Positions 25,496 through 51,557 of a DNA stretch of 52,585 nt are shown one piece after another. Below the pieces are notes generated by a model. The model had not been told where the DNA came from and ran no database searches. It worked only from the letters and a program-made list of their open reading frames with translations. Each line of letters begins with the position of its first letter. The first letter of the stretch is position 1. Source of the stretch: Lachnospiraceae bacterium (GTDB lineage Bacteria > Bacillota > Clostridia > Lachnospirales > Lachnospiraceae); NCBI GenBank assembly GCA_021201665.1, contig JAJQEO010000084.1:1-52585 (forward strand), in the 5' to 3' direction. Both the position numbers and the translations under genes were made by a program.

Positions 25496-27730
25496 TTATT
25501 TGATAACAAGGTCCTTAAGCTCCGAATCCTCCTCTGGATAATCGTACCGCTTAAAGTCTGTTTTTTCCTCAGGCTTGTCCCGTCCGGCTGCTTCGGCTTC
25601 CGCTTCTCTTAATGCCTGAATATACATAGCCGCAAAGTCAAGGCAGTCATTCTTCTCCGATGAAAAATCAGCCGGATCCGGCACCGGCACACGCTCTTTG
25701 CTGTACTCTACAAGGCAGACATGCAGTCTGGCCTCGACGTACTTGTGGGTGGCTTTGGGAAGCTCCGGGTTCGTAAAATAATAGTCCAGCTGGGCTTTGG
25801 ACGGACAGCGGAAACCCTGGGTTCTCATAAAGGCGTTCCAGCGCCTGTGTTCAATCCACGCCAGCTCATCGCTTTGACGGCTGTCACAGTGTACAGGAAC
25901 CTCATATACGTGCTCTGAGCGTAGTCCGTGTCCCCGAAGTCTGATGTTGCTCACAGCACCGATTCCATACAGCTTGCAAGGCGCATGGATGGTTCTCGTC
26001 ATATTTGACCAGAAGGAATACTCATCGTCCAGCACCTTGTTTTGATTCTTTTTACTATAAAGCTCCGCGGTAGCCTTTGCTCCGCCCAGATAATTCAGCA
26101 GAAAGACATTCTCACAGTCAAATCTGCTCTGTCTGTCGGCAAAGGTATACACCAGCGGGTGCGCGGGCGCAGGGTTTAACTCTTCCAGCGTCATTCCGGA
26201 TGTCCGGTCAAAAACAGCGGCCGCTATCACCGGACGGTGAGTACTTCTTTTTTCCAGAAGAGAGCGAACCACCTGATCTCTCAGTCTTGTCACCGCCGAG
26301 AGGTTCTCCTGGTCCGAATCAAACGCGACCGCGAAATAATCGGTTTTCTCAATGATATCTCCCGGAATATCCAGCAAACAGCTGCTGTCCTCGATCTGTA
26401 TAAACCGGGGCATTGTGGAGTAGGGCGGATTTTTCTCCTTCCGGGGATCAAGGGGGCGGATATTCAGAATATCCGACTGCGGATCACAGGAAGCGAGCAG
26501 CTCCGGGCAGTCCAGCCTCAGCTGTTTTTCAAACAGCTCCGCCTTCGTGCCGACCATATTCAGGTGAAGCTGCGTCCCGTTGATCTGGCCGCACCAGAAG
26601 GCCGTCTTAAACAATTCCTCCGCAATACAGCTGTCTCCAAAGACCGTGACATAGAGATCCTTTCGTTCTTCCCTGGGCTTGTACATCAGAGGGAGGAAAA
26701 GTGGGACATCATGCATAAGGTTCATAACCGCGTTGCGGTAGCTTTTCACAACACGGATCAATACCTGATCCGCATTTTCCTCATAGCGCGAGCAGATATT
26801 CCGGACCATCCCTTCGGAATCGGATTCCTCTGCAAACAGGTAAATTCTCACCCGATTTGCGAGTTCTTCCTTCGTCTTCGCAGTTTCCTCTTTCGCTTCC
26901 GCATCTGCTCCTTTCACGTCTGTCCGGTAATATTTCTCACCGTCATTCTCCAACAGTGCTTCCAGTGTATTGATATTCTCTCCAAAGGCGGTGTCCAGCA
27001 AAAAATAAGTGACTGACGCCGCCTGGCGGAAGGATAAAAACCGCAGATCCTCCTTCACGCAGATCGCCCCAAGTCCTCTGGTTCGATCCAGCAGCTCCGA
27101 ACGGGTTTCCTCGGTCGCGTCCGGGTATGTATCGGTAAAGACGAGAACTGGTTTCCCGTGAAAGGACAGCCTTGTTTTGATTTTCTCATAATGTCCGTCC
27201 CTGCAGATATCCTCCGCCAGACTGACAGAAGCCTCATTCATCTCGGAAAACACATAAACATCCTTATTCTTCAGGAAACGCAGCCTGAGCTTTGGAAACA
27301 GGTTCGTCAGGATATCCAGCAAAATCGCACCTCCAAGGATCGGCGCGCACAGATTCAGGACCGAAATCACCAGGCCGTAAACCGGAGCCCAGTTCGTCAG
27401 TCCCACCGTGATGAGAAGCTCCTTCCCCCTCACCGTATAATCCGTATAATCCTCATCCATACTGAACGTCTGCAGTCCGTGTATCAGACCGTTCATAAGC
27501 TCTTCCGCAAAAGAAAGCCCGCTGCTCTCCTCCGGCATCACAATCCCTGCCAGCCACGCTACCAGCAGCCGCGCGATAAAAATCAGGAGAAACAGCCAGC
27601 CGGCGATCAGAAGCTTTTTATTCTTTGCCCTGCCGTTCCTGAGAATGAGAATCACCGGCGCCGCCAGGACCGCGCAGATCAAGGCGCAGACCGGAATAAT
27701 GATATAAATCCTGTTCATAATCTCCAACAT
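25496..27730 (-). CDS. Membrane protein with Rossmann-like domains and C-terminal RyR-like domain
   Basis: 744 aa, last gene of the large operon. Two or three N-terminal membrane helices (about 5-30, 40-65, 115-145), then Rossmann-type strands resembling TrkA-N/ion-channel regulatory domains (DVYVFSEMNEASVSLAEDI; KPVLVFTDTYP; LYVTVFGDSCIAEELFKTAFWCG). The C-terminal region around 615-675 reads DELAWIEHRRWNAFMRTQGFR, matching the LAxxEHxRWxAxxxxxG(Y/F)R core of prokaryotic RyR domains, proposed to bind nucleotide-type ligands. A sensor or effector acting at the membrane is likely, possibly a ligand-gated pore. The start has GAGGATGAAAG. Confidence 0.72.
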   Translation of the reverse strand: MLEIMNRIYIIIPVCALICAVLAAPVILILRNGRAKNKKLLIAGWLFLLIFIARLLVAWLAGIVMPEESSGLSFAEELMNGLIHGLQTFSMDEDYTDYTVRGKELLITVGLTNWAPVYGLVISVLNLCAPILGGAILLDILTNLFPKLRLRFLKNKDVYVFSEMNEASVSLAEDICRDGHYEKIKTRLSFHGKPVLVFTDTYPDATEETRSELLDRTRGLGAICVKEDLRFLSFRQAASVTYFLLDTAFGENINTLEALLENDGEKYYRTDVKGADAEAKEETAKTKEELANRVRIYLFAEESDSEGMVRNICSRYEENADQVLIRVVKSYRNAVMNLMHDVPLFLPLMYKPREERKDLYVTVFGDSCIAEELFKTAFWCGQINGTQLHLNMVGTKAELFEKQLRLDCPELLASCDPQSDILNIRPLDPRKEKNPPYSTMPRFIQIEDSSCLLDIPGDIIEKTDYFAVAFDSDQENLSAVTRLRDQVVRSLLEKRSTHRPVIAAAVFDRTSGMTLEELNPAPAHPLVYTFADRQSRFDCENVFLLNYLGGAKATAELYSKKNQNKVLDDEYSFWSNMTRTIHAPCKLYGIGAVSNIRLRGHGLRSEHVYEVPVHCDSRQSDELAWIEHRRWNAFMRTQGFRCPSKAQLDYYFTNPELPKATHKYVEARLHVCLVEYSKERVPVPDPADFSSEKNDCLDFAAMYIQALREAEAEAAGRDKPEEKTDFKRYDYPEEDSELKDLVIK

Positions 27731-27796
27731 CTTTCATCCTCTGCTTTCCCTTATATCTTTAAGTTTGCTGTGAGATCGGTAAAAATGAAGCAGCTT

Positions 27797-27956
27797 AGGA
27801 ACTGCCGCGAAATAACATGCCCAGATTGTGCCGGATAACGTGTGAAGCACGAACCATAAAAACGTAGGCGCAGCGGGCTGCGTCGAGGCTTTTATGGTCC
27901 GCGATTCGCGCGTTAGGCGGTGCAAGGTGGGTAAGTAATTTTGCGACAGTTCCTTA
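27797..27956. mobile_element. MITE-like element, copy A (full, with inverted ends)
   Basis: Left end AGGAACTGCCGCGAAATAAC (27797-27816); the right end, read on the other strand from 27956, is AAGGAACTGTCGCAAAATTA. Inside is the family core GGCTTTTATGG followed by CGCGATTCGCGCG (27888-27912). The right end abuts the TAA stop of the HExxH gene. No transposase is encoded. Confidence 0.7.
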
Positions 27957-29015
27957 ATCCATGTCCATCCCGGAATCGTCGTTGTTTCCGCCTCCGCCGC
28001 TTCCATTGTCCTCTCCGGAATCGTTGCTGTCCTCTGAGGAATGCCCGTCATCCTCCGACTGCCCGGCATCCTCCATTTCGGAAGTATCTACTATGGACGT
28101 ATGGTCCTGTTCGTCTGTATCCTTCATGCCAGATTCCGCTGTTCCTCCTGCTCCGAGCCCTTCTGCGTCCTCCAGTCCGGGGCCTGACTTACCAGGTGCA
28201 TTCGGATCCTTTTCCTCATTCGCCTTGTTGGGCGCGTTTGGATTATTCTCCTGATTTGCTTTATTTACCGCATTTGCGTTATTTGTATTCTGGATATTCG
28301 CCTTGTTGATGATTTCAGCGTACCGTGCGTTCATTTCATCCTGTATTGTGCGTTCGATATTGGGATCCTTGTATCTGTCTTTTGCGGAATTCAGAGCTAC
28401 GTCATAGCCATTCTCATTAATGGCTTTCAGATATTCCTGAAACGCAGGATCTTCCCCATATTTTTCGTTCAGGTAAGCAAACACTTCTTTTGTGTTTTTT
28501 TCTCCGGCTTCAAATGCTGCTTTTTCCAGACTCTGAATGCGATAGAGATCATAGATGTCATCATCATACTCGATATAGTTTCCTGCGGCATTGTTTGCGG
28601 CCCAGTCCTGTATCTGTTCCTGTGTGATCCCCATTTCATCCAGCGTTTCCTGTGGAATCTCACCTCTTATGCACGCGTCCTGAAAGGAATGAAAGTCCTC
28701 GTGAAAAATCGTATCCACCATCTGGATGTGAGCGTCGTCCATCGTTTCACTTTTCAGTTCTCCGGTTTTCTCATCATGATAAAAAAACATCCCGCTTTCC
28801 AGGACATATCGATTTACAGTGATGCTGTTTCCATCATAATATCCAAATTCCGTACCTTCTATGTATTCAGCCCTGACCAGGGAGGGCGAATTGTTGTTAT
28901 GTGTGGATGAGATGACAGCCAGCTCCTGCAGCGCGGCCATCCGCTCGTCATAGGTGGCGTTCGTCCAGTTTTCACTGGAGAATTTTTCGTAGACGGACTT
29001 CTCGTAATCATTCAT
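27954..29015 (-). CDS. HExxH metallopeptidase-like protein with acidic Gly/Asp/Met tail
   Basis: 353 aa from the ATG at 29015 (MNDYEKSVYEKF), preceded by GGAGGAAGAAA; longer upstream frames lack a site. Residues 105-109 are HEDFH, an HExxH zinc signature, within MVDTIFHEDFHSFQDA. About 55 residues later LYRIQSLEKAAFEAGEK offers a Glu (E164) as third ligand, the arrangement seen in gluzincin-type toxin peptidases. The C-terminal 130 residues are low complexity: Asn/Ala-rich repeats (NPNAPNKANEE), then Ser/Asp/Gly ending GNNDDSGMDMD. No signal peptide. The tail resembles that of the 44376-44843 protein. A protease effector is a reasonable inference. Confidence 0.7.
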   Translation of the reverse strand: MNDYEKSVYEKFSSENWTNATYDERMAALQELAVISSTHNNNSPSLVRAEYIEGTEFGYYDGNSITVNRYVLESGMFFYHDEKTGELKSETMDDAHIQMVDTIFHEDFHSFQDACIRGEIPQETLDEMGITQEQIQDWAANNAAGNYIEYDDDIYDLYRIQSLEKAAFEAGEKNTKEVFAYLNEKYGEDPAFQEYLKAINENGYDVALNSAKDRYKDPNIERTIQDEMNARYAEIINKANIQNTNNANAVNKANQENNPNAPNKANEEKDPNAPGKSGPGLEDAEGLGAGGTAESGMKDTDEQDHTSIVDTSEMEDAGQSEDDGHSSEDSNDSGEDNGSGGGGNNDDSGMDMD

Positions 29016-29172
29016 TTTTCTTCCTCCAATCGGGGCTGAAAGCGTTTTTCGCCTCGTACTCGCCTGCATATCTATACTTTTAAATCGGATAGGGGGGAGT
29101 TTCTCACCCTATCCGAAGTTCTCGATTTGCTTCGCAAATCGGGAACATACGCCGCGCCTGCCGCAGCATTAA

Positions 29173-29487
29173 CTAGATTCTCAGCCTGCTCGCGGGCGTC
29201 CAGATCGCTTTTTCGCCTTTTTCCAGATCCTGCGCGTAGAGGTTCAGAAGCTTGAGAGCCCTGAGGAAACTCTTGCTTCTCTGAATTCCCATGATCGTTT
29301 CGATATTGTATTTTCCCACATTGATCTCTGGAAGAGGTTTTTCGTCCATCCAGGCCTGCAGCAGCGGATACAGCTCCGGACGCAGCTCGCCGCAGATTCG
29401 CGCGGCTTCATTTTCGCTGCTGATTTTTGTCTGCCAGGGACTTGATTTTTCTATTAATTCCGCAAGCTTCTTTCTGTCGATCTCCAT
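29173..29487 (-). CDS. Small helical hypothetical protein
   Basis: 104 aa with a clear ribosome binding site (AAGGAGGTCCAT). Predicted all-alpha, soluble, with a Trp-containing C-terminus (KAIWTPASRLRI). It lies between the AAA+ gene and the HExxH gene; a partner or immunity-type role is possible but nothing in the sequence shows it. I do not recognise a family. Confidence 0.6.
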   Translation of the reverse strand: MEIDRKKLAELIEKSSPWQTKISSENEAARICGELRPELYPLLQAWMDEKPLPEINVGKYNIETIMGIQRSKSFLRALKLLNLYAQDLEKGEKAIWTPASRLRI

Positions 29488-29622: not shown

Positions 29623-32562
29623 TCATCGCTTCGCTACCGCTCTGTTCAACAGCCGGACCTCCTCCGGCGACAGTACATCCTCCATAGTCAGCCGGGTGAG
29701 CAGCGGATCATCGCCTGCGTATCTGTTCTGGTTGATTCTCCTGATTGCTTTGTCAATCATTTTTTCGTATACGCTTCTGACGGTCCGTCCGTTAGCAAAA
29801 CCCGGCTCTTCTCTTACGATTTCAAACAGCTGCTCATAGTAGTCCTTCACGTCGTCGTCCACGGTATAGGCCGGAGCTCCCTTTTGCGCCATGAATACCA
29901 GCATATCCGCGCAATCCTTTGCGGAGTAATCGTGGAATTTGATAACCGAGGAGAGCCGGCTGAGCAGACCCGTATTTCCGGTTCCCGATCTGGTCAGCGC
30001 ATCCATGTCCTCCTGATAGCCCGCCAGTATGATGCAGCTGAATTTCCTGTTTTCCGGCTGATCCAGAAAGGCGACCATCTCTGTCATTGCCTGACTGTTG
30101 AAGCCATGTCCATCTGAACGCAGCGCATAGGCTTCGTCGAGCAGAAGGACACGCCTGCGGGATTTTTTCAATTCTTCAACCGTTTTCGAATGAGTCTGCC
30201 CCACATATCCGGCTACCAGCGACTGCGCGCTCTGCAGGATGACCGCCTCATCACTGACCAGGCCCAGAATATAGAGACATTTCGCTAAAATATCAGCCGA
30301 TGTGCTTTTACCTGTCCCCGGACTTCCGACAAAGAAGTAATACCCCGGATGCACGGGTGTCTTTCGTTCCGGATAGAGCATATTGTAAATCACCTTATCC
30401 GTCAGGCCGCGGATGACCTCCTTCAGATCCTCGTTTCCAATCCGGGTCGCAAGGACATCCTCTATCTCCTGCTGAATTCTCTTTGCGTTCTCTTCCGCAC
30501 TGTCATCGTGGAAGCGGAACAATCCGGCCTGCCTTCCAAAGTCTTCCTGAATAATGCAGTTTCCTCCTCTGGCATTGCAGTTTCGGATCGTCAGTTCGTC
30601 TCCGATGATCTGTATGGCTTCGCGCGCGTTCGCGAAATCCTCCTCAGGCACGGAATCCTGCAGATCTCTGAAAAAGTCCGGCAGGACGGGTACCAGCCTC
30701 TCGTCAACCGACAATCCCTGCTTCGCCACGTGCTCCAGATAAATCTCGGCCAGATGCTCCGGCTTATATGGCTTCAGCTCCAGTGTATAAGTCATACGAC
30801 TGCGCAGACCGGGATTCATATCAAAGATCGGCTCCAGCTGATCCCCATATCCGGCCATGATCAGGCAAAATGGAAACGCGTCCTGCTGCTCTGTCCCGCT
30901 GTAGCCGACCAGCGTGTCCACCGCAGCCTGGGCAAAATCATGGCCATGCTCCTTGCCCGTGCCCAGCATGGAATAGGCTTCATCAATAAATAACACTCCG
31001 TTCCGGGCTTCCTCAATCTTATTCGCCACCAGATGGGCGGTGCCTCCGACATGATCGGATATCAGTTCAGAGCCCTTGACCGAGACGGTATGTCCCGTAC
31101 TGAGAATTCCCGCCTCATTCAAAGCGCGCCCCACCAGGGCAGCAACGGTTGTTTTTCCGGTTCCGGGAGGACCCAGCAGCATAAAATGCGGGATATTCAC
31201 TCTTCTGGTCTGTTTCGTGGTGATCTGGATGCGCTCACAGATGCTGATCCGATCCGCATCCGTCTCCTCAAGCATCCGTGCAAGCACTGAGTTCTGACCC
31301 GGGGCCGCGGCACGGTTCATACGTGTTTCATTATCCTTTATCACTGCTTTCACTACTTCATAAACGGACTCCCAGCCTTTGCGGTTCAGCTCCTGCAGGG
31401 CGGACACGGAATAATCCTTTTTTCCGCCGAAGAGGTATCTGATGACCTGTTCATCAAATGGTATTTTGTTTCCGAACAGGCTTCCGCTGGTTTTTTTATA
31501 GGTTTTCATATAATCTGCGATCTCATGCTCCGCATTTAATATCAGATTTTTGTGCCCGTCGTTTCCGGTCGCGGAGCTGCTTCCTTCACCCGCGTCTCCC
31601 CCGCCGGAGCCCAGAGCCTTATCGTAACAGCAGAAGCGCAGAGTGGACGCCAGTCTGTCCAGATCCTTCAGCCTGTAATTCAGGCGGAGGAAGCCGGCAG
31701 CAAAATCCTCGGCATTGCCCTTTATGTCTGCCGCGCCAGTGGCCACTCGGTCGCGGATGCCCACGATCCGCAGATGCTCCAGCAGGCGGACAAACTCATC
31801 CTGACCGGGCATCCCCACCTGCAGCACACGGTTCGAATCAAAGCACATACCAGTGCCCTCGCCCTTTCCCATATTGGCAAACATCCGCGCGAACTCCGGT
31901 CTGGCGGCGAACTGGGATTCCAGCTTTTCCAGCGTATATCCGGGTGCGATAAAGATCACGATATTTTCGCTTCTGGTGGGCAGAGTGACCATTCTGGTCA
32001 GCAATTCCATATAGTTTCTATAATAGTCCGACGCAAAGAAAGCGTCCAGATCAGCAAAAACTACCGCGTTTTTGCAGTCTCTGGCATTCATGTGGTCCTT
32101 AAACTGGCCAAGCAGTACTTCCTGAGAAAGCTCGCGGGCATTTCCATATGTAAGATTTTTCCATTTCTCTTTTTTTCCTGCTTCGCCTGATGCTGCCGCG
32201 CTTTCTCCCTCTTTACCGACGACTGCCGCACTTTCCTTTGATGTATCAGCGGAGGAGCGATGTCGCGGCAGGCCTCCGCCCGGCATTCTCCTGCCGCGGG
32301 AACCTCCCGGCCGCGCCTCGCGGGAGGAGCCTTTGGACGGAAACGCGTAGGTTGCGCTGTCCTCATCCAGCGCAAACTTCATGTTGTATGAGTTGGCGCC
32401 GCGAAAAATGACATGGTCATAGCCGATTTCATGCAGATGGGCGGCCAGAAAGGACTCAAAATCTATCATCACCAGATCTCTTCCAATGAACCAGTCCTGT
32501 GTCTCTCCTGTGATCAGGAATACACGGTTTTGCGGAGACTCAAAGATCGTTTTTTCTCTCAT
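29623..32562 (-). CDS. Tandem AAA+ ATPase of the CbxX/CfxQ-SpoVK type
   Basis: 979 aa. A unique N-terminal region (about 1-430) precedes two CbxX-like AAA+ modules. Module 1: Walker A MLLGPPGTGKTTVAALV near 460, Walker B VLFIDEAYSML. Module 2: Walker A FFVGSPGTGKSTSADIL near 747, Walker B VLLLDEAYALRSDGHG, and a sensor/arginine-finger segment (GNTGLLSRLSSVIKF). Both modules look catalytically intact. Relatives include SpoVK, rubisco activase CbbX and the EccA ATPases of type VII secretion; all remodel protein complexes. In this operon it would act as the remodelling motor. Ribosome binding site AAGGGAGAAAAAA. Confidence 0.88.
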   Translation of the reverse strand: MREKTIFESPQNRVFLITGETQDWFIGRDLVMIDFESFLAAHLHEIGYDHVIFRGANSYNMKFALDEDSATYAFPSKGSSREARPGGSRGRRMPGGGLPRHRSSADTSKESAAVVGKEGESAAASGEAGKKEKWKNLTYGNARELSQEVLLGQFKDHMNARDCKNAVVFADLDAFFASDYYRNYMELLTRMVTLPTRSENIVIFIAPGYTLEKLESQFAARPEFARMFANMGKGEGTGMCFDSNRVLQVGMPGQDEFVRLLEHLRIVGIRDRVATGAADIKGNAEDFAAGFLRLNYRLKDLDRLASTLRFCCYDKALGSGGGDAGEGSSSATGNDGHKNLILNAEHEIADYMKTYKKTSGSLFGNKIPFDEQVIRYLFGGKKDYSVSALQELNRKGWESVYEVVKAVIKDNETRMNRAAAPGQNSVLARMLEETDADRISICERIQITTKQTRRVNIPHFMLLGPPGTGKTTVAALVGRALNEAGILSTGHTVSVKGSELISDHVGGTAHLVANKIEEARNGVLFIDEAYSMLGTGKEHGHDFAQAAVDTLVGYSGTEQQDAFPFCLIMAGYGDQLEPIFDMNPGLRSRMTYTLELKPYKPEHLAEIYLEHVAKQGLSVDERLVPVLPDFFRDLQDSVPEEDFANAREAIQIIGDELTIRNCNARGGNCIIQEDFGRQAGLFRFHDDSAEENAKRIQQEIEDVLATRIGNEDLKEVIRGLTDKVIYNMLYPERKTPVHPGYYFFVGSPGTGKSTSADILAKCLYILGLVSDEAVILQSAQSLVAGYVGQTHSKTVEELKKSRRRVLLLDEAYALRSDGHGFNSQAMTEMVAFLDQPENRKFSCIILAGYQEDMDALTRSGTGNTGLLSRLSSVIKFHDYSAKDCADMLVFMAQKGAPAYTVDDDVKDYYEQLFEIVREEPGFANGRTVRSVYEKMIDKAIRRINQNRYAGDDPLLTRLTMEDVLSPEEVRLLNRAVAKR

Positions 32563-32827: not shown

Positions 32828-34402
32828 TTATTCAGATTCGGCAACCAGCTTCTTTTTCTTACGATTCACCTCGTTGGCGACTACCCTGTGCTCGGTACCG
32901 GCCTTGCAGCCGCCTGTGATCCTGGCTTGTCCTCTTCTCGGCACGCTTCCTTCTGCAATGCAGCGGACTGCCTCCTCCATTTCCCTGCGGCTTCTGCTTT
33001 TATCGACCTCGGGATCCAGTTCCTCCGCCATGTCCGTAATCTGCAGATCCACCGCGCTGTCATTCTGATTGCTCAGCTCAATCAGGATCTCGTCTCCGTA
33101 AGCGTCTACAAAAACCATGCACAGATGCGCGTCTATATCGTCATCTGACGTTGCCTCCGCCAGTCCGTCCGCGCCGGTTCTCAGATAACGATAGTCTTTA
33201 TACGTATAGCCCATTTCCACCAGTTCATCGATGATACGCGATCCCAGTGACTCACGCTGCAGGGCATTGTTGAGGCGGGTGATGACCTTCCGGATGCGGG
33301 TGGCGATCTCACCTCTCCACTCCCCTGCCATTTTTTCGGCTATTTCCTTCAATTCTGCCGTGGTCAGAACACACCCTTCGCCCAGGACGCTTTTCTCCAG
33401 CTGGTTCAGCTTCTCCAGCATCACGGTATACACGCTTTGTCCATCCGCCGTCGTACCCCAGAAGGGAGTGAGATCCATCCCGATCAGCTCGTCCCGGAGA
33501 GTAAATGTCCGGTCATCCTCCACACAGGCGTCCTCAAGCTCCTCATAGAATTCCTTCGAAAGTGTACTCATCGAGGCCATCATTTCTCTGTTTTCGGCGA
33601 TCAGCACAGCAGCCATCTTCTGCCAGTTTTCGAATTCCTGGTGCTTCTCATCAGCGGTAAGGATATCCGCCCTCAGCTTCGCCATAAGAGAAACCACGGC
33701 GATCAGGCAGCCTTCGTAGTTTCCCTTCTCATATTGTCTCCGTGCCTCGCTTAAGGCACTCTCGTGGAGGGCAACCGCGGCGTCCCCCAGATATTTTTCC
33801 CCTGAAAAGTCCAGCTTCAGGGATTTCAGCAGATCCTCCGCGTCGGCGATATACTCCATAGCTGCTGTTTTTTGCGCCTCCTGCCTTTTTGCCTCATCCT
33901 CATGAAGCGCCTGGATCTCAGCCATCGTATCTGCCATCTTTTTACTGCTCTCACGCTCTGCCTCAGCAAGGGAAGCGGCGATCGCGTCCCGGTAGGTGCT
34001 CTGCAGCTCTTTTTGCCGGCGGTCCATCTCTGCTGTCATTCTGGCAGCGGAAGCCGTCAGATCCTTCCCAAATTCCTCCGGTGCTTCCAGGATGCGGCCG
34101 GCCTGGCTTGCAAAGACCTCTCTGTTTCTCTCGACTTCCTTCTCAAACTCCTCCGAAAGCGCTTTATTCTGCTTTCTCTGCTCCTCCATGAGTTCCTTCG
34201 CTGATTTGCGGAATCCGGTAATTTCTCTGTCGATTCCGGATCTTCGAACCAGCTCGCGCTCCTGGCGTTTTTTCTCCTCATACGCCCTGCCCGCATTCAC
34301 GGCGGCTTTGCCTGCCGCGCCTGCGGCTGTAACAGCGGCGTAGCCGGCGGCCACCGGCAGCGCCAGCGGCAAAAGCACCAACAGTCCAATCTCTCCACTC
34401 AT
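32828..34402 (-). CDS. Coiled-coil protein with N-terminal hydrophobic segment
   Basis: 524 aa. The start ATG overlaps the previous stop as ATGA and has AAAAGGAGGG upstream. Residues about 5-37 are hydrophobic and Ala/Gly-rich (LLVLLPLALPVAAGYAAVTAAGAAG), possibly a membrane anchor. A long charged coiled coil follows (about 40-220), then a mixed alpha/beta C-terminal domain with IDAHLCMVFVDAYGDEILIELS around 420. The next gene upstream has a similar coil-then-domain layout, so the two may form a hetero-complex. Family not recognised. Confidence 0.7.
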   Translation of the reverse strand: MSGEIGLLVLLPLALPVAAGYAAVTAAGAAGKAAVNAGRAYEEKKRQERELVRRSGIDREITGFRKSAKELMEEQRKQNKALSEEFEKEVERNREVFASQAGRILEAPEEFGKDLTASAARMTAEMDRRQKELQSTYRDAIAASLAEAERESSKKMADTMAEIQALHEDEAKRQEAQKTAAMEYIADAEDLLKSLKLDFSGEKYLGDAAVALHESALSEARRQYEKGNYEGCLIAVVSLMAKLRADILTADEKHQEFENWQKMAAVLIAENREMMASMSTLSKEFYEELEDACVEDDRTFTLRDELIGMDLTPFWGTTADGQSVYTVMLEKLNQLEKSVLGEGCVLTTAELKEIAEKMAGEWRGEIATRIRKVITRLNNALQRESLGSRIIDELVEMGYTYKDYRYLRTGADGLAEATSDDDIDAHLCMVFVDAYGDEILIELSNQNDSAVDLQITDMAEELDPEVDKSRSRREMEEAVRCIAEGSVPRRGQARITGGCKAGTEHRVVANEVNRKKKKLVAESE

Positions 34403-37340: not shown

Positions 37341-37341
37341 A

Positions 37342-40407: not shown

Positions 40408-40590
40408 TCAACGAAAGGCCTGAAACAAAAAGTAAATGACCAGGCCGTAAACAAAAATAGTGAGAAGCAATCCCCCCAGAGCACTCGCTGAGCCTGAGAT
40501 GTATTGAAACAGAACATCATGATAAACGATAATGCTGGCGATCCAGAGAAGGGCGATCGCAGCTAAAATAATCAGAATATATTTCCGCAT
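40408..40590 (-). CDS. Small two-helix membrane protein
   Basis: 60 aa from the ATG at 40590 (MRKYILIIL), with GGAGGAAAAA directly upstream; a longer frame to 40650 lacks a site. Two membrane helices (about 3-23 and 36-57) separated by a short loop (YHDVLFQYISGSASAL). It lies next to a second small membrane protein, so both may anchor the cytosolic components. Confidence 0.65.
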   Translation of the reverse strand: MRKYILIILAAIALLWIASIIVYHDVLFQYISGSASALGGLLLTIFVYGLVIYFLFQAFR

Positions 40591-41093: not shown

Positions 41094-41103
41094 TTTTTCT
41101 CCT

Positions 41104-41250
41104 CCCATAAAATCTGCCGCGAAACGATATGCGCAGCCTGCACCGCCTGATACGCGAACCGCAGCTTCTAAATGCCCAGGCGCAGCCTGCTATGCGAATC
41201 ACAAACACTAAATGCCCAGGCGCAGCCTGCGGTGCGGCGGCGAACGCCGC
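41104..41250. mobile_element. MITE-like element, copy F, with internal 40-bp duplication
   Basis: ATCTGCCGCGAAACGATATG near 41111 matches the family end; core words CCTGATACGCGAACCGC (reverse orientation) follow. CTAAATGCCCAGGCGCAGCC occurs at 41167 and 41207, a 40-bp tandem step. Confidence 0.55.
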
Positions 41251-42542: not shown

Positions 42543-42654
42543 ACAATCTCCTCCCATATGCTACGGCCGCCGGAGTCATCAATCGGAACACAACCGCCGG
42601 ATTCCAGTGCAAACGCCCGGTTTCCGCTTTTCGCCCCTGGCATTATCGTTCCTG

Positions 42655-44375: not shown

Positions 44376-44843
44376 TCAGTCCCCCATGCCCGCGCCGCCG
44401 TCGCTGCCCATGCCGCCGTCTCCGCCGTCCATGCCGCCATCGCCGCCATCCATACCGTCTCCGCCATCCATACCGTCTCCGCCGTCCATGCCGTCTCCGC
44501 CATCCATACCGTCTCCGTTGTCGGTCATTCCATTTTCCGAGTTGGCCTCACTCTCGTTAGCTTCGTTATTTTGGGTTTCCTTTTCGTTGGCTTCGCTGTT
44601 CTGATTCTCATTTTCCTGGCTCTCGCTCTTTTGGGCTTCGCTCTCCTGCTGCTTCGCGAAATCTTCCTTTTCCTGGTCGAATTTCTGGTTAAGTTCTTTC
44701 TCCGCCTCTTCTTTTTCCTGCTCAGACATATCCTTATTTTCTCTTATTTTTTTAATCTGCCCCTTACGCAGCTTTTCCAGCTCTTCATTATATTCCTCGA
44801 TATTCTTCTGTGTTCTCTCATAAATACTCATAAAAACTCCCAT
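44376..44843 (-). CDS. Small charged protein with Gly/Asp/Met repeat tail
   Basis: 155 aa from the ATG at 44843 (MGVFMSIYERTQ), chosen for AGGAGGGAATTTT upstream. The N-terminal ~60 residues are helical and charged (IYERTQKNIEEYNEELEKL), then a Glu/Asn/Gln-rich linker, then repeats of GDGMDG type (about six, 18-bp DNA period) to the end (GGAGMGD). No cysteine. The tail parallels that of the HExxH protein. Possible roles: secreted or modified substrate, or a flexible recruiter. Confidence 0.6.
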   Translation of the reverse strand: MGVFMSIYERTQKNIEEYNEELEKLRKGQIKKIRENKDMSEQEKEEAEKELNQKFDQEKEDFAKQQESEAQKSESQENENQNSEANEKETQNNEANESEANSENGMTDNGDGMDGGDGMDGGDGMDGGDGMDGGDGGMDGGDGGMGSDGGAGMGD

Positions 44844-45046: not shown

Positions 45047-47959
45047 TTAATTTCCGCGTTTCCTCCGGCCGAAGACCTTTCCCGCGATTCGCTCCGTCAC
45101 GGACGGCTGATAATTCTGTCCGGCTTCTTCCAATAGTGCCATAAGCTTTTGCCGTAATTCCCCGGTGCAGGCTTCCTCAGAAAGCACCCTTCCTGTCAGC
45201 TTCGGCGTATAATAATGGGGCAGATATTTGCGCAGCGCCTGTTCCAGAATATGCTGTGCGTCCTGCATGAATTCGGTGCTGCGTCCGGGGACGCTCAGCA
45301 TATAAAAGGACGCTCCCGCCAGCGATACAATCTGTGCCGGCAGCCGGTGCCCCTTTGCGGAGGAGAGTGCCTCCGACACATAGGCGTCGATATAGGTGGT
45401 CAGCATTCTCGCATCCGGCAGAGAAAACAGGCAGGCCATCGTAAAATGCAGATTTTCATTGCAGAACCGCGCCGCGGCAGCGGCTATCGTTTTGAAATAC
45501 TCACTCCCGACAAAAAGGTTGTCTGTCGTAAAGCATTTCCCGGCAAAGTCGTCCGCCAGAGAAAGCGCTTCCTCCGCTGTACCCGCGCGCCGCAGGCTGT
45601 CGCGGAATTCATAAAAGGATACGCTGGCGGAAATCCTTCCGCTCGCGGACGCCCATCGTTTCATTTCTGCATAGGCCTCCGGCAATGCCTGATTTGAGCC
45701 GGACAGCATGGAATGAACACCGGAGCGCTGATTTGAGCCGGATAATAATACAGAGCGGGTACCCGGGCGCTGGTCTGAGCCGGATAATACAGAGCGGGCG
45801 CCAGGACGCTCGTCTGAACCGGATAATACAGAGCGGGCACCCGAACGCTGGTCTGAACCGGACAATACAGAGCGGGTGCCCGGGCGCTGGTCTGAACCGG
45901 ATAACACAGAGCGAACGCCCGTCCTGGGCTCACCGCTATGCCACGGCTTCAGCAGCGCGTCGAGCCTGCCAAAAAACACATCCTCCACTTCTCCGCTCAG
46001 CTTATCCCTCAGCTGATAAAGCGTTTCGCACAGCTTTCCGATATTTCCCCCGTACAGTGCCAGCACCGCCTCCCACCAGTCGCCCGCGCGGTTTGAATAT
46101 TCTCCTTTCGCTTTTCCTCTCGCATCCGTCTTTTCCAGATACTCTGAAACAGATGAGACGATCGCATAAAACACCTCCGGCGAGGTCTGCAGCCGGGCAA
46201 GCGCTTTTTCAAGCTCCTGCCTGTCCTTTTGCAGAGCAATCAGCGCCAGGCACACAAATCTGTATTTCTCATCACTGTCGCCAATCAGGCGAAAGCCGCG
46301 CGGATTTGCTTCTGTCATCGTAAAAAACAGATCCAGTACAATAGCGGCCGTAGCGGGGGAGATGGTTTCCAGAAGCGGCGTATACGCGATGATGCGGTCA
46401 TCGCCGAAAAGCTCCGCAAGCGCCGGCATCACCATATCTGTAAGCGATGAATGCTTCAGGGCGTCCCAGGTTTTGCCCAGGCGGGCGCCGTCTGAGGCGA
46501 GATTCTCACATTCCCGCGAAAGCCGGTCCGCCAGGCACGCGCTGACCCGGTCCGAACACTCCAGCTCCTGCGCCATCTTCCACATGAGCGCAAGCAGCGC
46601 GTATCCTCCGTCCTCATCCTCCTCCATAAAGCGCGGATACAAATGAATGCATTCCTCCAGCAATTCACCAGTAAGTTCCCACGCCGCAGAGGACGCCTCC
46701 TTTCCGGCTGACAATACCGCAGAGGATGCCTCACTGCCGGCTGACAGTGCCGCAGAGGTCGCCTCCCTTCCGGCTGACAATGCCGCAGAGGTCGCCTCCC
46801 TTCCGGCTGACAGCCCTGCCTCCCGCAATGCATCGACGGCAGAGCAAAAGGTGTAATACGTCTGACCGCCTGCAGCGCGGTTCTCGGAAAGCAGATAATC
46901 CCAGGCGTTATACGCTCTCTCAAGCAGGGTGCCGATCTGCGGAATTTTCAGGCACGGAAGTACGTTTGTATAAAACTCTTTTATCTTTTTTCCGTATTGA
47001 ACCGCGTCCGTATAATACGGTGTGTCTATTGATTCTGTCGGCTGAAAGCACGCCGCTTTTCCGGCGCCATCTATCAGGACATACCGATCTGTCGAAGCCA
47101 GAGCCAGCGAGCCGCAGAATTCATCCTGCGGATGGAAGCCAGTAATCATACAGTACGGACGGCGTTTCAGAGTGCCCCCGCTGTTTCCCACAGGAGAAAA
47201 CCGCCCGTTATCGTCTACGTAATAAAATAATTCACTGTTTATCTGAGCCGTCAGGTTTGTGCGGTTCGTCACAAACGTAACCGTCCCGGCCATCGCCTCC
47301 GGAAGCGCATATTCAATCGCGGAAATCCACAGCTCCACATTTTCCGGTGTATCGCGTATCAGAAGGACCCTGCGCTCTTCCTCCGGTTTATCGAATTCAT
47401 AGAGCAAAAACCACAGGGCAGCCTTTACCGCCTCTGTCCGTCCATCACGGACGAAGGATTTTACGCCGGCAATGTCAATATAACCGCCGAACGGCTCATC
47501 CTCCGTCTGCGGCAGCCATTCGGGATCCTCCCCCGCGTCCTGATCCAGATAATAATCGGATTCCGGTCTTTTATAAGCGTCCCACTCTTCCGTTCCAAAC
47601 CATTCACAGGGACGCCCCGCAAATTCCCCCGTATAGCACTGCTTGATAAAACCGCCCGATCTCTGCCCGGAGCTTTCCCCTTCAAGGCGCGTGCGCGTTT
47701 CCTCGCGGGAGAGCGCGTAGGTATTCCCTGAAAGGTGTGTATACTCATACACGGAAAAAGTCCCCGCGTCAGAAGCCTCCCTTGATCCACTGCGGACCGC
47801 GAGTACACGCTGCAGCAGATCCGGGTTGGGTGCCTCCCCGTCCGCAAACAGCTCCTGGCTGAGTGAAAAAATCCCGAAACCGCTGCTGCGGTTTACCTGT
47901 CCCTGGTTTTTCAGATCCCGATGCGGAAAGCATCTGGTGTAAATCAGCTGATTCAACAT
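45047..47959 (-). CDS. GAP1-family GTPase-associated protein
   Basis: 970 aa from MLNQLIYTRCF at 47959 (GGAAGGAGG upstream). The N-terminal ~230 residues (LIYTRCFPHRDLKNQGQVNRSSGFGIFSLSQEL; IKQCYTGEFAGRPCEWFGTEEWDAYKRPE) match, as I recall it, the GAP1-N2 domain named for GTPase-associated protein 1. The remainder would be the helical GAP1-M and GAP1-C regions. Two minisatellite linkers interrupt it at about residues 381-425 (11-residue unit) and 676-756 (13-residue unit). Such proteins neighbour double-GTPase genes in predicted conflict systems, and two GTPase genes lie directly upstream here. No enzymatic motif is visible. Confidence 0.72.
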   Translation of the reverse strand: MLNQLIYTRCFPHRDLKNQGQVNRSSGFGIFSLSQELFADGEAPNPDLLQRVLAVRSGSREASDAGTFSVYEYTHLSGNTYALSREETRTRLEGESSGQRSGGFIKQCYTGEFAGRPCEWFGTEEWDAYKRPESDYYLDQDAGEDPEWLPQTEDEPFGGYIDIAGVKSFVRDGRTEAVKAALWFLLYEFDKPEEERRVLLIRDTPENVELWISAIEYALPEAMAGTVTFVTNRTNLTAQINSELFYYVDDNGRFSPVGNSGGTLKRRPYCMITGFHPQDEFCGSLALASTDRYVLIDGAGKAACFQPTESIDTPYYTDAVQYGKKIKEFYTNVLPCLKIPQIGTLLERAYNAWDYLLSENRAAGGQTYYTFCSAVDALREAGLSAGREATSAALSAGREATSAALSAGSEASSAVLSAGKEASSAAWELTGELLEECIHLYPRFMEEDEDGGYALLALMWKMAQELECSDRVSACLADRLSRECENLASDGARLGKTWDALKHSSLTDMVMPALAELFGDDRIIAYTPLLETISPATAAIVLDLFFTMTEANPRGFRLIGDSDEKYRFVCLALIALQKDRQELEKALARLQTSPEVFYAIVSSVSEYLEKTDARGKAKGEYSNRAGDWWEAVLALYGGNIGKLCETLYQLRDKLSGEVEDVFFGRLDALLKPWHSGEPRTGVRSVLSGSDQRPGTRSVLSGSDQRSGARSVLSGSDERPGARSVLSGSDQRPGTRSVLLSGSNQRSGVHSMLSGSNQALPEAYAEMKRWASASGRISASVSFYEFRDSLRRAGTAEEALSLADDFAGKCFTTDNLFVGSEYFKTIAAAAARFCNENLHFTMACLFSLPDARMLTTYIDAYVSEALSSAKGHRLPAQIVSLAGASFYMLSVPGRSTEFMQDAQHILEQALRKYLPHYYTPKLTGRVLSEEACTGELRQKLMALLEEAGQNYQPSVTERIAGKVFGRRKRGN
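45690..45930. repeat. 39-bp minisatellite inside the GAP1 gene, about six copies
   Basis: In-frame unit giving RSVLSGSDQRPGT-like peptides; one copy carries a 3-bp insertion (RSVLLSGS). The repeat is near-perfect and probably length-variable between strains. Confidence 0.88.
46683..46815. repeat. 33-bp minisatellite inside the GAP1 gene, four copies
   Basis: In-frame unit giving SAGREATSAAL-like peptides, built on CCTCCCTTCCGGCTGACA. Confidence 0.88.
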
Positions 47960-48098: not shown

Positions 48099-49232
48099 TC
48101 ACACCGCAGGCACAATTCCTTCTTTGTACAGCATCCAGACCAGGGGGTCCAGAACCCGGTGCGGAGTAACCGTCCCCAGCCGGTATGGTCCGACCGGAGG
48201 CTTTCCGAAATTCGATACGCCAAAGAAACGTACGCGCCCGTTTACAAAATTTGCGTCAATCGCTTTCAGAAACGCGGACTGGTGCTTTGCCGCAAGCCAG
48301 TCCTGGATCTCCTGATCCACGGCATCCGCGTCCGCCAAGTCAAATCCCCGTTTTTCCAGATGCGGGCTCGGCTGCATTGTCACCCCGGCACGGAACTCTC
48401 CTTCAACAATATCAATCTTTGTGAACACAATGGCAACATCACGGTCAATCTTTCTGTCCACCGATATCCCACAGCAGGCTCTGATATAATTCGCCAGATT
48501 GTCCACCATCGCCGTCGGCGCCCCTCCCGTATGCTCCGCAGTACTGGACCATTCCCGGATCTCCTCCGGAACCTCGCTGACTGCCTCACTCAGCGTAAGC
48601 GGATCTATCAGAATGACCAGCACCTTCGAACCCGCCACATATCGGCTGATCACGGGATCAATTTCCTTTTCAAAATCCTCTCCCGCACCGTCATAAATCG
48701 TAACTGAATACGACGGTATCCTCGTGTCCGTCTGCTTATCCAGGTCTCTGACCTGCCAGAGCTGAGGGCGGGGGGAAATCCCGGGCGGAGTGGAATCCAC
48801 AGTCTTATTCTGATGAAACATGAGCCCGTCATTTCTCTGAAATGTCCTGTCCGTCATGCCATCCATATGAGATAACACCCAGGGGGAATTCTCCGCGTTC
48901 CTGAGCTCGTGGAGCATCGCGGTCAGAAAGCTGGTCTTGCCGGAGCCTATCGTTCCAATCATGCTGAACCGCAGATACTTATCATATTCGAGAAGCCCCG
49001 CAGGCAAAAGTGCGCCGCAGGATTCATACCCGCACTTGAGGCGGGTAAAGCTCCCGCTGCATCCCGGGTTGGAGCATTTCTCCACCCTTCCGGTGCAGGG
49101 TGCCTCTGCTCCACAGACCGGGCAGACCCGGATCAGAAATTTTTTCCCCAGCCTCTCAAGACAATAAGGGCAAATCACATCACTCCGGGCAGCACTTGCA
49201 AATGACGGCCTGAATCTGTCCCATACTGGCAT
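48099..49232 (-). CDS. Zinc-ribbon P-loop GTPase (double-GTPase family-like)
   Basis: 377 aa. N-terminal paired zinc ribbons: C21/C24, C37/C40, further Cys pairs at 53-58 and 67-72. Then the GTPase: Walker A GTIGSGKT at 93-100, G3 DGAGE at 181-185, G4 TKID at 271-274. The domain order (Cys knuckles directly before the P-loop) is that of DO-GTPase2-type proteins. The G4 motif is intact, so guanine specificity is likely. Overlaps nothing; GGGAGGATAATAC precedes the ATG. Likely the regulated switch of the operon's system. Confidence 0.82.
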   Translation of the reverse strand: MPVWDRFRPSFASAARSDVICPYCLERLGKKFLIRVCPVCGAEAPCTGRVEKCSNPGCSGSFTRLKCGYESCGALLPAGLLEYDKYLRFSMIGTIGSGKTSFLTAMLHELRNAENSPWVLSHMDGMTDRTFQRNDGLMFHQNKTVDSTPPGISPRPQLWQVRDLDKQTDTRIPSYSVTIYDGAGEDFEKEIDPVISRYVAGSKVLVILIDPLTLSEAVSEVPEEIREWSSTAEHTGGAPTAMVDNLANYIRACCGISVDRKIDRDVAIVFTKIDIVEGEFRAGVTMQPSPHLEKRGFDLADADAVDQEIQDWLAAKHQSAFLKAIDANFVNGRVRFFGVSNFGKPPVGPYRLGTVTPHRVLDPLVWMLYKEGIVPAV

Positions 49233-49270: not shown

Positions 49271-49864
49271 CTACGCTTCGGGTACCTTCAGATTTTCCAC
49301 CTGCCCGATTCTCATAAAGTACGCGCCGATGTCCTCCTGAGAAAGGATCAGGCGCAGACAGGTGCCGGGCTTCAGCCCCCGGAAAGCATCTGCTTCGAAG
49401 GAGCAGACATATCTGCCGTCTGGAAACCCTTTTGGAAAAGGATCAATCGTGTGCAGAACCACCAGCCCCGGATTTGTCTCACTCATGGGTACATGCCCGT
49501 CCTTCTGGTATACGAGCTTCAGCTGAGGTGTAGCGTGCGCGGGGCACGACACAATCAGCTCCGCGTACAGGCGGTCAGGAGCTGCCGGCCCTCTTCCGAA
49601 TCTGCGGCGGCCGGACCGCCCTGTATTCCAGCGAATATCATAGGTAATCGTCCGTTTTTCCCGCTCTGCCAGAGAAAGCGCCGCGCCGCGCACTTCCGTC
49701 TCCGTTGATTCCGCTCTGGATGGTCCTGTTTCGGATGCTCTTGTACCGGTCGTCCCCGTACCGGATGCACTCGCCCCGGAAGGTTCCGTCACGATAAAGA
49801 TTGCGGTATTCAGATCCCTTACAACCGGAAGCAGAGCCTCCAGATCCTCTCTTGTCCTGCTCAT
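49271..49864 (-). CDS. Hypothetical beta-rich protein between the two GTPase genes
   Basis: 197 aa from MSRTREDLEALL at 49864. A short N-terminal helix, a Thr/Ser/Gly-rich linker (about 30-60), and a C-terminal beta-rich domain (LYAELIVSCPAHATPQLKLVYQKDG; RYVCSFEADAFRGLKPGTCLRLIL). The start is tentative because the ribosome binding site (GGGGGAAAATATTC) is only moderate. Its position between the two GTPases suggests a shared adaptor. Family not recognised. Confidence 0.6.
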   Translation of the reverse strand: MSRTREDLEALLPVVRDLNTAIFIVTEPSGASASGTGTTGTRASETGPSRAESTETEVRGAALSLAEREKRTITYDIRWNTGRSGRRRFGRGPAAPDRLYAELIVSCPAHATPQLKLVYQKDGHVPMSETNPGLVVLHTIDPFPKGFPDGRYVCSFEADAFRGLKPGTCLRLILSQEDIGAYFMRIGQVENLKVPEA

Positions 49865-49982
49865 GAATATTTTCCCCCGCCATATTATTGATAACCTGAT
49901 GACGCCAGAGTCAGAAATCAAAGACCGGGCGCCTGCACTCAGATGTCTGACTTATCCGCCCATGCCGCATACTCTTAGTTTG

Positions 49983-51557
49983 TCATCCTATGCCGCATAC
50001 TCTGGAAAACTCTTCGTCCGCCTGGGGAAGCAGCCATTTGATGACTTTCTCGATTCCCCATGGGGCAAACGCGCTCCCGTCCGGCGCGTGTCCGATAGCG
50101 CTGATCGGAAAATAACGGACATTTGTAAACTTTGCCTCCAGACTATAGACCGCGTTCGGAGAACACTGACTGATCAAAAATGTCCTGCACGCGTCACTGG
50201 AGGAATCTTTACGAAGGAATTCCCCGACTTCCTCTTCATCCGCTTTGGGAATCAGCACCGCGACCGGCGTCCGATATCTGTCTTCCACCTTTTCCCGCTC
50301 CAGGGCATCTATGTAATTAATGAAATTCCCAACCACGCTTTCCGCAGTCATTTCGCTGCAATGCTCCAGGCCTTCGCCGCGCTCCAGCCGCCTCTGCCGC
50401 AGCTTTCCGCTGCTGAACGGATCCAGAAACAGCAGAAAACCATTGCAGTACTTAAATTGCCTCTGGGTAATTTCCTCGTCTGAACGTATGCCGTCAAACA
50501 TTTCTCCTGCTATATCATAAACTGTGAGCATCCTCTTCACTTCGAGCGGGCTCTCAATCAGAAGCGGATACATGCGGGAGTTCATCTGAGCCGTCGGCGG
50601 ACAGTTCGCGCTCCGATACCATCCCTCCAGTTCATGGAAGGATGCCTCGTAAAGCTTGGGGATACTCGGATTCAATTTGTCATCCCTTAGAAAATACTCC
50701 TGAAATATATGGTAAAAAGAAGTAAGAAACACCGTTTTGCCTGACTTTGTCCCGCCAATCATCTGAAAAGCAATCGGCCTGGCGTCCGCGGCAGCCAGAG
50801 GTGCCCCGCAGTCCGGACAATACCCTTCCAGGCGCGATCTGCCATTTAAGAAAACGGAAGAGATCTTCGTCCCACAATCACATTTATGGTGCCAGATCCC
50901 ATACGGACCGGGGATCAGATGTTTATGCTTCCTCCCGCATTCCGGGCAGGCAAACACCGGAACCAGAAAACGGCTGTGACACACCGGACAGTCACTGAAT
51001 ATTCTGTTTTTGTTTAAATATGTACGATCAGTAAACCAGACAACAGAAAAGACGGCATAGATGATCAGCATCACAACGGTCGTCACAGTGCCATGCAGCA
51101 GCCCAAATATGGCACAGAGAATTGTCCCAAACACAAAAATACTGATATAAGCGAAAATCCGAAAAGCCCAGGCCATAACAAGCCTGAAAAACTCAGTCGA
51201 CATAACAGTAGTATAATGACGCGCCCCCTGAATTCGTTCCGCTATATGGTTCAGGCTTTCGATGGAACTCCAGTTCTGCAGAAATGATTCTTTAATGGTA
51301 TTTGCCAGCTGCACATACCCCGGGCCGAAAAAGTAGCTCCGCCTCGCAGGCTCCGGCTCCTCTCCCTCCCGCTCTGTCCATTCCCATTCCCGGAAATTGA
51401 TATTGTGAAGGATCGCCAAGACATAGTTTTTCACCGCATAAAAAGCCGCAAACGCCAGTGCGGCAAAGAAGATCACATAAACTCCCACTGCACATATGGC
51501 GAAGAACAATGCAAATGCAAGAATCCACGCAATAAGATCCGATATAGTGTCTCCCAT
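49983..51557 (-). CDS. Membrane-anchored zinc-ribbon P-loop GTPase
   Basis: 524 aa, first gene of the operon. Two hydrophobic hairpins (about 8-45 and 128-175) anchor it; then zinc-binding pairs C190/C193, C204/C207, C226/C228, C247/C250; then the GTPase with Walker A GGTKSGKT at 268-275 and G3 DIAGE at 348-352. The G4 position reads PKAD (437-440) instead of (T/N)KxD, so base specificity may be relaxed. It is related in layout to the 48099-49232 protein but adds membrane segments. Ribosome binding site AGGGGGATGAGTT. Confidence 0.82.
   Translation of the reverse strand: MGDTISDLIAWILAFALFFAICAVGVYVIFFAALAFAAFYAVKNYVLAILHNINFREWEWTEREGEEPEPARRSYFFGPGYVQLANTIKESFLQNWSSIESLNHIAERIQGARHYTTVMSTEFFRLVMAWAFRIFAYISIFVFGTILCAIFGLLHGTVTTVVMLIIYAVFSVVWFTDRTYLNKNRIFSDCPVCHSRFLVPVFACPECGRKHKHLIPGPYGIWHHKCDCGTKISSVFLNGRSRLEGYCPDCGAPLAAADARPIAFQMIGGTKSGKTVFLTSFYHIFQEYFLRDDKLNPSIPKLYEASFHELEGWYRSANCPPTAQMNSRMYPLLIESPLEVKRMLTVYDIAGEMFDGIRSDEEITQRQFKYCNGFLLFLDPFSSGKLRQRRLERGEGLEHCSEMTAESVVGNFINYIDALEREKVEDRYRTPVAVLIPKADEEEVGEFLRKDSSSDACRTFLISQCSPNAVYSLEAKFTNVRYFPISAIGHAPDGSAFAPWGIEKVIKWLLPQADEEFSRVCGIG

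Follow-up and report, generated by a model that had tools for sequence, protein, structure and literature searches.

The GTPase-centric systems described by Kaur et al. (2020; PMC7159879) are defined by DO-GTPases together with GAP1 proteins, the GAP1-N2 type occurring in firmicutes and others. As set out in the sections of that paper drawn on here, GAP1/DO-GTPase systems have two DO-GTPase copies in 38% and N-terminal zinc ribbons on the GTPase in 60%; GAP1-N2 neighbourhoods follow a tubulin (52%), HSP70 (14%) or kinase/PP2C/vWA (10%) theme, about a quarter falling outside these, and their traits include a component with FnIII repeats and one GTPase with four N-terminal transmembrane (TM) helices. 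Here, we describe an operon on the minus strand of a 52,585-nucleotide stretch of Lachnospiraceae DNA ("the window"; bases 1-52585 of the 71,267-base contig JAJQEO010000084.1, assembly GCA_021201665.1), in which a predicted front end of this kind (genes g1-g4) is joined to a five-gene cassette (g12, g13, g15, g16 and g17) that elsewhere mostly follows TerD genes.

The second group of related systems is that of the Ter / TerY-P loci, in which, as Anantharaman et al. are said to have described in 2012, TerD is combined with kinase, vWA and PP2C proteins. The window shares with such loci the same cassette in the same order, namely a radical S-adenosylmethionine (SAM) enzyme, the coiled-coil proteins g13, g15 and g16, and an AAA+ ATPase. 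Unlike the Ter loci, it yields no match to TerD, vWA or PP2C among the 20 open reading frames (ORFs) of the operon region covered by our Pfam scans, the kinase/vWA/PP2C triad likewise not being found there, and its AAA+ protein has two P-loops. With the GAP1-N2-type systems (PMC7159879) the operon shares two DO-GTPases, one of them with N-terminal hydrophobic regions, as well as Cys pairs, GAP1 and a firmicute host; unlike their themes, it adds radical SAM/coiled-coil/AAA+ and VirD4-like genes. The original prediction, made from the DNA letters, that this full combination is not known as a described system was borne out to the extent that it is absent from the three GAP1-N2 themes of that paper, in whose main text "VirD4" does not occur and "radical SAM" occurs once, for FtsH systems, and that none of the publications listed by searches of the open-licence PMC literature names the combination. 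The joining to GAP1 is the new part; the Ter-linked cassette itself may have been described before. We put at about even chances the interpretation that the operon is a GAP1/DO-GTPase conflict-type system with the five-gene TerD-associated machine as its effector block.

Cassette homologues without nearby GTPase genes lie on a contig of another genome of the family (G171:C36) and on L028, a 21 kb fragment of an IMG/VR contig in which four TerD genes are followed by the cassette and then by kinase, vWA, PP2C and HerA-like genes (Pfam: one TerD 1e-71, PP2C 1.3e-28, kinase 1.9e-9, vWA 4e-9). To collect further loci, 84,980 species genomes were scanned with two peptide patterns from the AAA+ N-terminal region, which gave 44 loci; in all, 139 stretches matched and 45 were confirmed, L028 from the viral collection among them, and because two patterns were used the count is a lower bound. 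By family profiles, the five genes are present in order at 35 of the 45 loci, and at 30 of the 31 in which 5.5 kb or more precedes the AAA+ start; nine of the ten incomplete loci begin no more than 3.7 kb from the AAA+ gene, while L049 has room yet is without the cassette. Of the complete cassettes, 27 have 1.5 kb or more of upstream sequence; the partner there is TerD in 23, GAP1/g11 in two and neither in two, from which we read the operon as a module swap, the GTPase switch standing in the usual place of TerD. Downstream, kinase, vWA and PP2C genes together follow ten of the 18 complete cassettes with at least 4 kb, the other eight having none of these. The loci belong to Clostridia, Synergistales or Synergistaceae, and one to Spirochaetales (L048, with no TerD in view).

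The hydrophobic N-terminus of g16 is found in 38/38 members of its family and in 0/36 of the family of its paralogue g15, and CxxxCxxC is present in 36/36 members of the radical SAM family (g12 itself matches NrdG at 3.6e-23, below the cut-off). The N-terminal region of g17 shows an AAA+ core fold and is predicted to form an inactive AAA-fold ring ahead of the two active rings; of 36 relatives that are not of the GAP1 type, 32 have three P-loops, against two in g17. The protein resembles CbbX and EccA1, with NCBIfam scores below the equivalog cut-offs, and differs from EccA / CbbX / SpoVK, whose AAA+ modules it shares, in having two active rings plus the predicted inactive one. Family tables excluded short proteins, those at or below 70 bits and those with stops or many X, leaving 35-38 rows per cassette gene, window included, of up to 46; the alignments hold 36 of 38 g16 rows, 33 of 35 g13 rows and 34 of 43 AAA+ N-termini (window included).

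The junction of the two modules recurs in two other genomes. An independently assembled orthologous contig (JAJBVE010000100.1 of Clostridiales bacterium U_127077; G831:C100) keeps the g1-g19 order, with 15 genes 69-88% identical at the protein level, and a genome of the same genus as the window (G027; content as JAJQFO010000221.1) has a shorter version, g1-g4, g11-g13 and g15-g17, its contig ending inside g17. Gene order is thus conserved in other genomes, as the original prediction required. The GAP1-type cassettes seen, those of the window, G831 (locus L029 lies inside it) and G027 (locus L030, equivalent to the G027:C271 locus; L051 likewise corresponds to the G171:C36 locus in gene content), form one clade with support of 1.0 for the radical SAM, g15 and g16 genes, AAA+ being scorable for two of the three; the clade is an unrooted split on a long stem. 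At the other loci, the distances of four cassette genes correlate (r 0.85-0.98; 0/999 permutations as high). A g16 profile found one copy each in the window's own genome (G000), G027 and G831, one in G171 together with a weaker match at its g15, and none in G006, a further genome of the same genus. That two unrelated operons adjoin here by chance or mis-assembly might be suspected from the window's own assembly (121 contigs, 6.15% contamination) and from the lack of overlap at the GAP1 end, but the recurrence of the junction, and in G027 the 4-nt overlap of the GAP1 and g11 frames, largely refute this explanation and make it highly improbable. What was not supported was the earlier view of a single novel unit: the operon joins at least two separable modules.

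Judged from its sequences, the front end is a GAP1/DO-GTPase system of the kind set out in PMC7159879, with DO-GTPases that carry the Walker B glutamate and with GAP1 downstream of a GTPase. The g1 product matches DO-GTPase2 (3.7e-7, 30.5 bits; cut-off 27) and carries the motifs GGTKSGKT and DIAGE, the Walker B glutamate motifs found for DO-GTPases being DIAGE / DGAGE; its hydrophobic peaks on a simple scale are at residues 12-30 and 136-154, with four helices discernible by eye. The g3 orthologues of G831 (29.9 bits) and G027 (32.7 bits) exceed the same cut-off of 27, and g3 aligns with g1 (hhalign 97.8). For GAP1-M (cut-off 24), g4 and its G831 orthologue (23.0 bits) lie below the threshold and the G027 (24.8) and G006 (25.8) proteins above it. 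Over 869 columns, g4 matches the GAP1 that G006 and G030 encode as part of an HSP70-containing system (hhalign 100), and it aligns end to end with the G006 protein at 28% identity. That G006 system comprises a TM GTPase, a GrpE-like coiled coil (by eye), HSP70, HSP70-vWA, a large component, a GTPase, GAP1 and a HerA-type ATPase, and g2 matches the last 122 residues of its large component (hhalign 98.2). The g2 product, whose start was refined from G831, shares a reading frame with g3 in G027 and has no Pfam FnIII match. Among 60 relatives GAP1 is present in six: the window's own genome, G006, G027, G030 and, weakly, G024 and G052. Two zinc-ribbon GTPases plus GAP1 had been proposed; the GTPases and GAP1 are supported by Pfam, orthologues and hhalign, while the ribbons are visible, by eye, only as Cys pairs, the best Pfam zinc-ribbon match in g1 (0.025) lying below the cut-off. 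As a separate observation, the GAP1 gene (45047-47959) has an in-frame low-complexity repeat expansion of SVLSGSDQRPGTR type that is shorter or different in G831.

Several results weigh against this interpretation of the operon. Pfam GAP1-N2 (PF20013) gave nothing at E<=10 in five genomes including G006 (the model matched in 3 of 14 control genomes), for which reason the system is not filed as a proven GAP1-N2 member and the front end is called GAP1-N2-like by context only. For the membrane GTPase of G006 the best fit is DO-GTPase1 (40.9 bits), no Pfam family matches the second G006 GTPase at 0.01, and in the 692 of 1046 residues of the large G006 component that were scanned, from its start, neither FnIII nor DnaJ was matched. 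In G027, g5-g10 are missing between GAP1 and g11, and a search of the whole genome (99% complete) at E<=0.001 gave no g19 match, so the add-on genes are not constant. The system is rare: 3 of 397 genomes of the family have matches (the window's own, G171 and, with a weak coiled-coil match, G449), as do, at the level of the class, 1 of 391 for alignment A1 (its own) and 2 of 391 for A3, the second weak. PADLOC returned superfamily-level matches only (for example mad8 2.7e-12 for g6, IetA 3.8e-10 for g17, pVip 2.6e-5 for g12), and the roles given below to g7, g8, g9, g11, g18 and g19 are guesses. Finally, the operon region has two gene overlaps and otherwise gaps of 38-276 nt, which makes a single transcript less than certain.

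A different function would be that of a cytoplasmic secretion-like pump, in which the EccA-like AAA+ protein and the VirD4-like g6/g7 pair export or load g5 and g19, the acidic tails of the latter serving as signals. This is suggested by the resemblance of g17 to CbbX/EccA1 and of g6 to TrwB, by an FtsK/EccC-like ATPase at three cassette loci, and by the Type III-A CoCoNuTs of Bell et al. (2024; PMC11090510), which have EssC-, SpoVK- and VirB4-like ATPases beside TerY-P, secretion being suggested for the EssC type; an FtsK/WXG100 operon is also cited there from Anantharaman et al. 2012. The likeness to these CoCoNuT extensions lies in their grouping of SpoVK-, FtsK/EssC- and VirB4-like ATPases with coiled coils and TerY-P modules, the ATPase types being seen again here. 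The window differs in having no McrBC, CARF or nuclease match and in that the CoCoNuT SpoVK-type protein has one active ring, and section 10 of that paper, on the CoCoNuT ATPases, names neither radical SAM nor GAP1. Among the 20 ORFs, g6 alone passes the cut-off of any conjugation or type IV secretion family, with no relaxase, VirB4 or channel family, and for type VII secretion neither the EccC/EssC motor nor the membrane core nor WXG100 was found above the cut-off in the operon, the EccA-like module being the only such element; apart from g6, then, the products do not match a secretion or conjugation apparatus. Moreover, G027 lacks both g19 and the VirD4 block, and the likeness of the g5 and g19 tails was seen by eye. 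We regard the pump as improbable.

The choice between anti-invader defence and stress response is less clear-cut. The cassette might serve a Ter response to chemical, metal or envelope stress, with the GTPase version sensing envelope damage, a possibility that we consider real though not the likelier one. It is in keeping with TerD lying upstream at 23/27 loci, with a P-type ATPase gene at 16 of the 25 complete TerD loci (at L028, where its type was checked, a PMCA-type calcium ATPase), and with the operon having no nuclease family above the cut-off. In the published record, TerD synthesis in C. difficile is reported to rise under metronidazole (PMC6262375), and for a DO-GTPase of phage-shock-protein (PSP) operons a role in membrane stress has been predicted (PMC11237479). 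Against it, GAP1 systems are argued in PMC7159879 to be conflict systems, and a Cas13a gene lies upstream of the operon. Both stress and phage roles have been claimed for Ter genes, so that the two explanations overlap.

Returning to the GAP1/DO-GTPase system with a TerD-associated effector block, its function would probably be a membrane-associated conflict or stress response. The coupling of switch and cassette is taken from gene order alone, and the rest of the following scheme from what is known of the families. The two GTPases, g1 at the membrane and g3, would form a threshold switch together with GAP1, which g2 and perhaps g11 would connect to the machine; once triggered, the switch would cause g17, with its several AAA+ rings, to remodel the g15/g16 coiled-coil pair, anchored at the membrane through the hydrophobic N-terminus of g16, and the radical SAM enzyme may modify a cassette protein. 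Among the variable add-ons, observed only in the window and G831, the VirD4-like pair g6/g7 could act as a pump or scaffold, with the HExxH protein g19 and the small membrane proteins g8/g9 as possible terminal effectors; the likely purpose would be to limit invaders or envelope damage. The original model of a scaffold with motors agrees with the recurring coiled-coil/AAA+ cassette. More tentatively, the cassette may be a general execution machine with interchangeable switches, TerD/TerY-P in most lineages found and GTPase/GAP1 here, and the g15/g16 pair would be the output that acts on the membrane, the AAA+ rings holding it inactive or assembling it, as in two-part helical pore formers.

The data suggest that a single machine can answer to different alarm switches, and the GTPase/GAP1 conflict and Ter stress families, both large and poorly understood, would thereby be linked through it. 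If one effector block has two unrelated switches, the block can be tested apart from either, with a bearing on the role of ter genes. The target set is well delimited: the five genes of the cassette keep one order, and its paired coiled-coil proteins divide consistently into one with a hydrophobic head and a paralogue without it. The TerD/radical SAM/coiled-coil/AAA+ cassette (L028, L031-L072) merits a survey of its own.

Concerning the extent of the operon, all genes from 51557 to 25496 lie on the minus strand, as first stated. A real operon of 18 genes (g1-g13 and g15-g19, of which g8, g9 and g10 are weakly supported) runs from 51557 to 27954, whereas the earlier end at 25496 and total of 19 genes, reached by adding the RyR-like gene g21 to these 18, were not upheld. 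Both close homologues of g21 lie elsewhere: among 98 relatives, matches were found in five (its own, G027 at 52%, G835 at 50%, and weakly G006 and G010), and in G027 and G835 a single gene, trigger-factor-like, separates it from a miaB-like gene (both names given by eye). When the operon proteins were searched against those contigs by tblastn, no further convincing operon gene came up. No Pfam RyR match was obtained for g21 at E<=0.5. The G831 contig stops after g19 and is uninformative on this point. On the strength of the homologues sited outside GAP1 operons, the missing RyR match and the 223-nt gap, g21 was excluded from the system. A unit of all 19 genes with the RyR-like protein as sensor would accord with the common strand and short distance of g21, but given the location of its homologues and the minus-strand signals in or at the g19-g21 gap (three terminator-like, one promoter-like), we hold it to be extremely unlikely. 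Within 25000-30000, terminator-like and promoter-like sites both exceed those in shuffled sequences (12 versus 5.3 and 9 versus 4.4).

Genes were called by codon position against G831. The share of differences at third codon positions is 0.49-0.67 in 15 of the 20 ORFs (g1-g7, g11-g13 and g15-g19) and 0.29-0.41 in the remaining five: 0.40-0.41 for g9, g10 and the ORF 35747-36175, 0.33 for 27734-28069 and 0.29 for 40675-41208. For this last ORF the frame is wrong, and the 128-codon ORF 40722-41108 (g8) is more likely to be the gene, with a modest third-position excess (54 of 129 differences, counted over the ORF 40675-41208). The ORFs 35747-36175 and 27734-28069 gave no clear coding signal and were dropped. 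Starts of g2, g4, g5, g9, g11 and g19 were moved to match G831 or to fit a ribosome-binding site. Where several ATGA or longer overlaps had been reported, just two were found, g11/g12 (41 nt) and g15/g16 (4 nt). Nor was the promoter placed at 51632 recovered: the sole minus-strand consensus match in 51400-52100 is at 51901-51873 (9/12), and on both strands that interval holds two consensus sites against 1.6 expected. A 14-pair hairpin lies at 51811-51842, between g1 and an upstream array of clustered regularly interspaced short palindromic repeats (CRISPR). Short intergenic repeats resembling miniature inverted-repeat transposable elements are present at 35908-36182, 27731-27953 and 39284-39559; the first two, each overlapping a dropped ORF, are 85% alike over 101 nt, and inverted ends of GGAACTGT type (by eye) flank 27731-27953 and 39284-39559 on both sides and 35908-36182 on one. 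Coordinates are given in Table 1.

Table 1. Genes of the operon region, with window coordinates, strand and the evidence for each
Gene	Position	Strand	Description	Evidence
g1	49983..51557	-	membrane DO-GTPase; N-terminal hydrophobic regions, Cys pairs, GTPase domain	DO-GTPase2 (Pfam)
g2	49271..49864	-	small protein, homologous to C-terminal domain of large G006 GAP1-system component	hhalign
g3	48099..49232	-	soluble DO-GTPase with Cys pairs	DO-GTPase2 1.8e-4, below cut-off
g4	45047..47959	-	GAP1 protein	GAP1-M 21.8 bits (cut-off 24); hhalign
g5	44376..44843	-	acidic coiled coil, Gly/Asp/Met-rich tail	third-position share 0.62 against G831
g6	42655..44118	-	VirD4/TrwB-type pumping ATPase with Walker A	TrwB_AAD_bind 8.6e-39
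g7	41259..42557	-	partner of g6	84% identity in G831
g8	40722..41108	-	small Arg-rich protein, hydrophobic segments 65-83 and 101-119; weak support	frame by substitution pattern
g9	40408..40590	-	about 60 aa, two hydrophobic segments; weak support	64% identity in G831, share 0.41
g10	39560..40303	-	Cys-pair N-terminus and coiled coil; weak support	44% identity in G831, share 0.40
g11	37949..39283	-	degenerate kinase-like protein (motif only)	FGMGLILYELLTG stretch; conserved in G831 and G027
g12	37342..37989	-	NrdG-like radical SAM, cassette gene 1	Fer4_12 4.8e-25
g13	36183..37205	-	coiled coil with small N-terminal domain, cassette gene 2	alignment of 33; collinear
g15	34399..35907	-	coiled coil without hydrophobic N-terminus, cassette gene 3	hhalign 98.9 to g16
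g16	32828..34402	-	coiled coil, hydrophobic N-terminus, small C-terminal alpha/beta domain, cassette gene 4	model pLDDT 71.9
g17	29623..32562	-	AAA+; predicted inactive AAA-fold N-terminal ring and two CbbX/EccA-type rings, cassette gene 5	
g18	29173..29487	-	104-aa protein	87.5% identity in G831, share 0.59
g19	27954..29015	-	HExxH protein (HEDFH), acidic Gly/Asp/Met tail, candidate effector	70% identity in G831, share 0.56
g21	25496-27730	-	RyR-like gene	223 nt beyond g19

Among the product assignments of the original prediction, Pfam supported DO-GTPase2 (g1), the TrwB/VirD4-type ATPase (g6), the NrdG-like radical SAM enzyme and the tandem AAA+ protein (5.7e-31); the HExxH motif is likewise there in g19. 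The g6 product also matches TrwB in the PDB (1.5e-14) and, over 76 columns, the HerA-like ATPases of other cassette loci (hhalign 93.7). Its partner g7 has no GxxxxGK[ST] (Walker A) motif and no significant hhalign match to g6; by eye, it is possibly a dead VirD4-like paralogue, and beyond its own genome and G831 it has one weak match in 299 family genomes. The pseudokinase assigned to g11 is backed by the FGMGLILYELLTG motif, but g11 has no Pfam match, no kinase among its PDB matches and no significant hhalign match to the Ter-locus kinase. The same gene has an in-frame repeat expansion of HGSAAGGSA type, shorter or different in G831, whose g11 is partly masked. No Pfam match was found for g8, and g9 matches SLATT_4 at E=0.04, below the cut-off. 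The g5 product is 75% identical over 121 residues in G831, and g19, besides itself, has one weak match (G006) among 60 relatives. The acidic Gly/Asp/Met-rich C-terminal tails of g5 and g19 are similar by eye and possibly form a common recognition signal.

At the GTPase-free cassette of G171:C36, a 2536-residue open frame (bases 3-7610, L024) runs off the sequence start beside an FtsK-like gene and looks secreted and repetitive by eye. Upstream of g1 in the window, at 0.5 kb, the CRISPR array occupies 52025-52585 and continues to about 52708 of the contig (L020:25-708), with at least nine repeats, mostly at about 73-nt spacing and partly masked. A type VI-A Cas13a gene (NF038188, 3.7e-166) follows 3 kb upstream, at contig 54753-59018 (L020:2753-7018), and the gene between it and the array (L020:1036-2739) has a weak TIR-like FxsC match, below the cut-off. 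Cas13a and the array are in keeping with a defence neighbourhood but are no proof of one. A tyrosine recombinase (XerA-like, 1.1e-23, below the family cut-off) is encoded at 21611-23014, past the downstream end of the operon region, and points to possible mobility of the neighbourhood.

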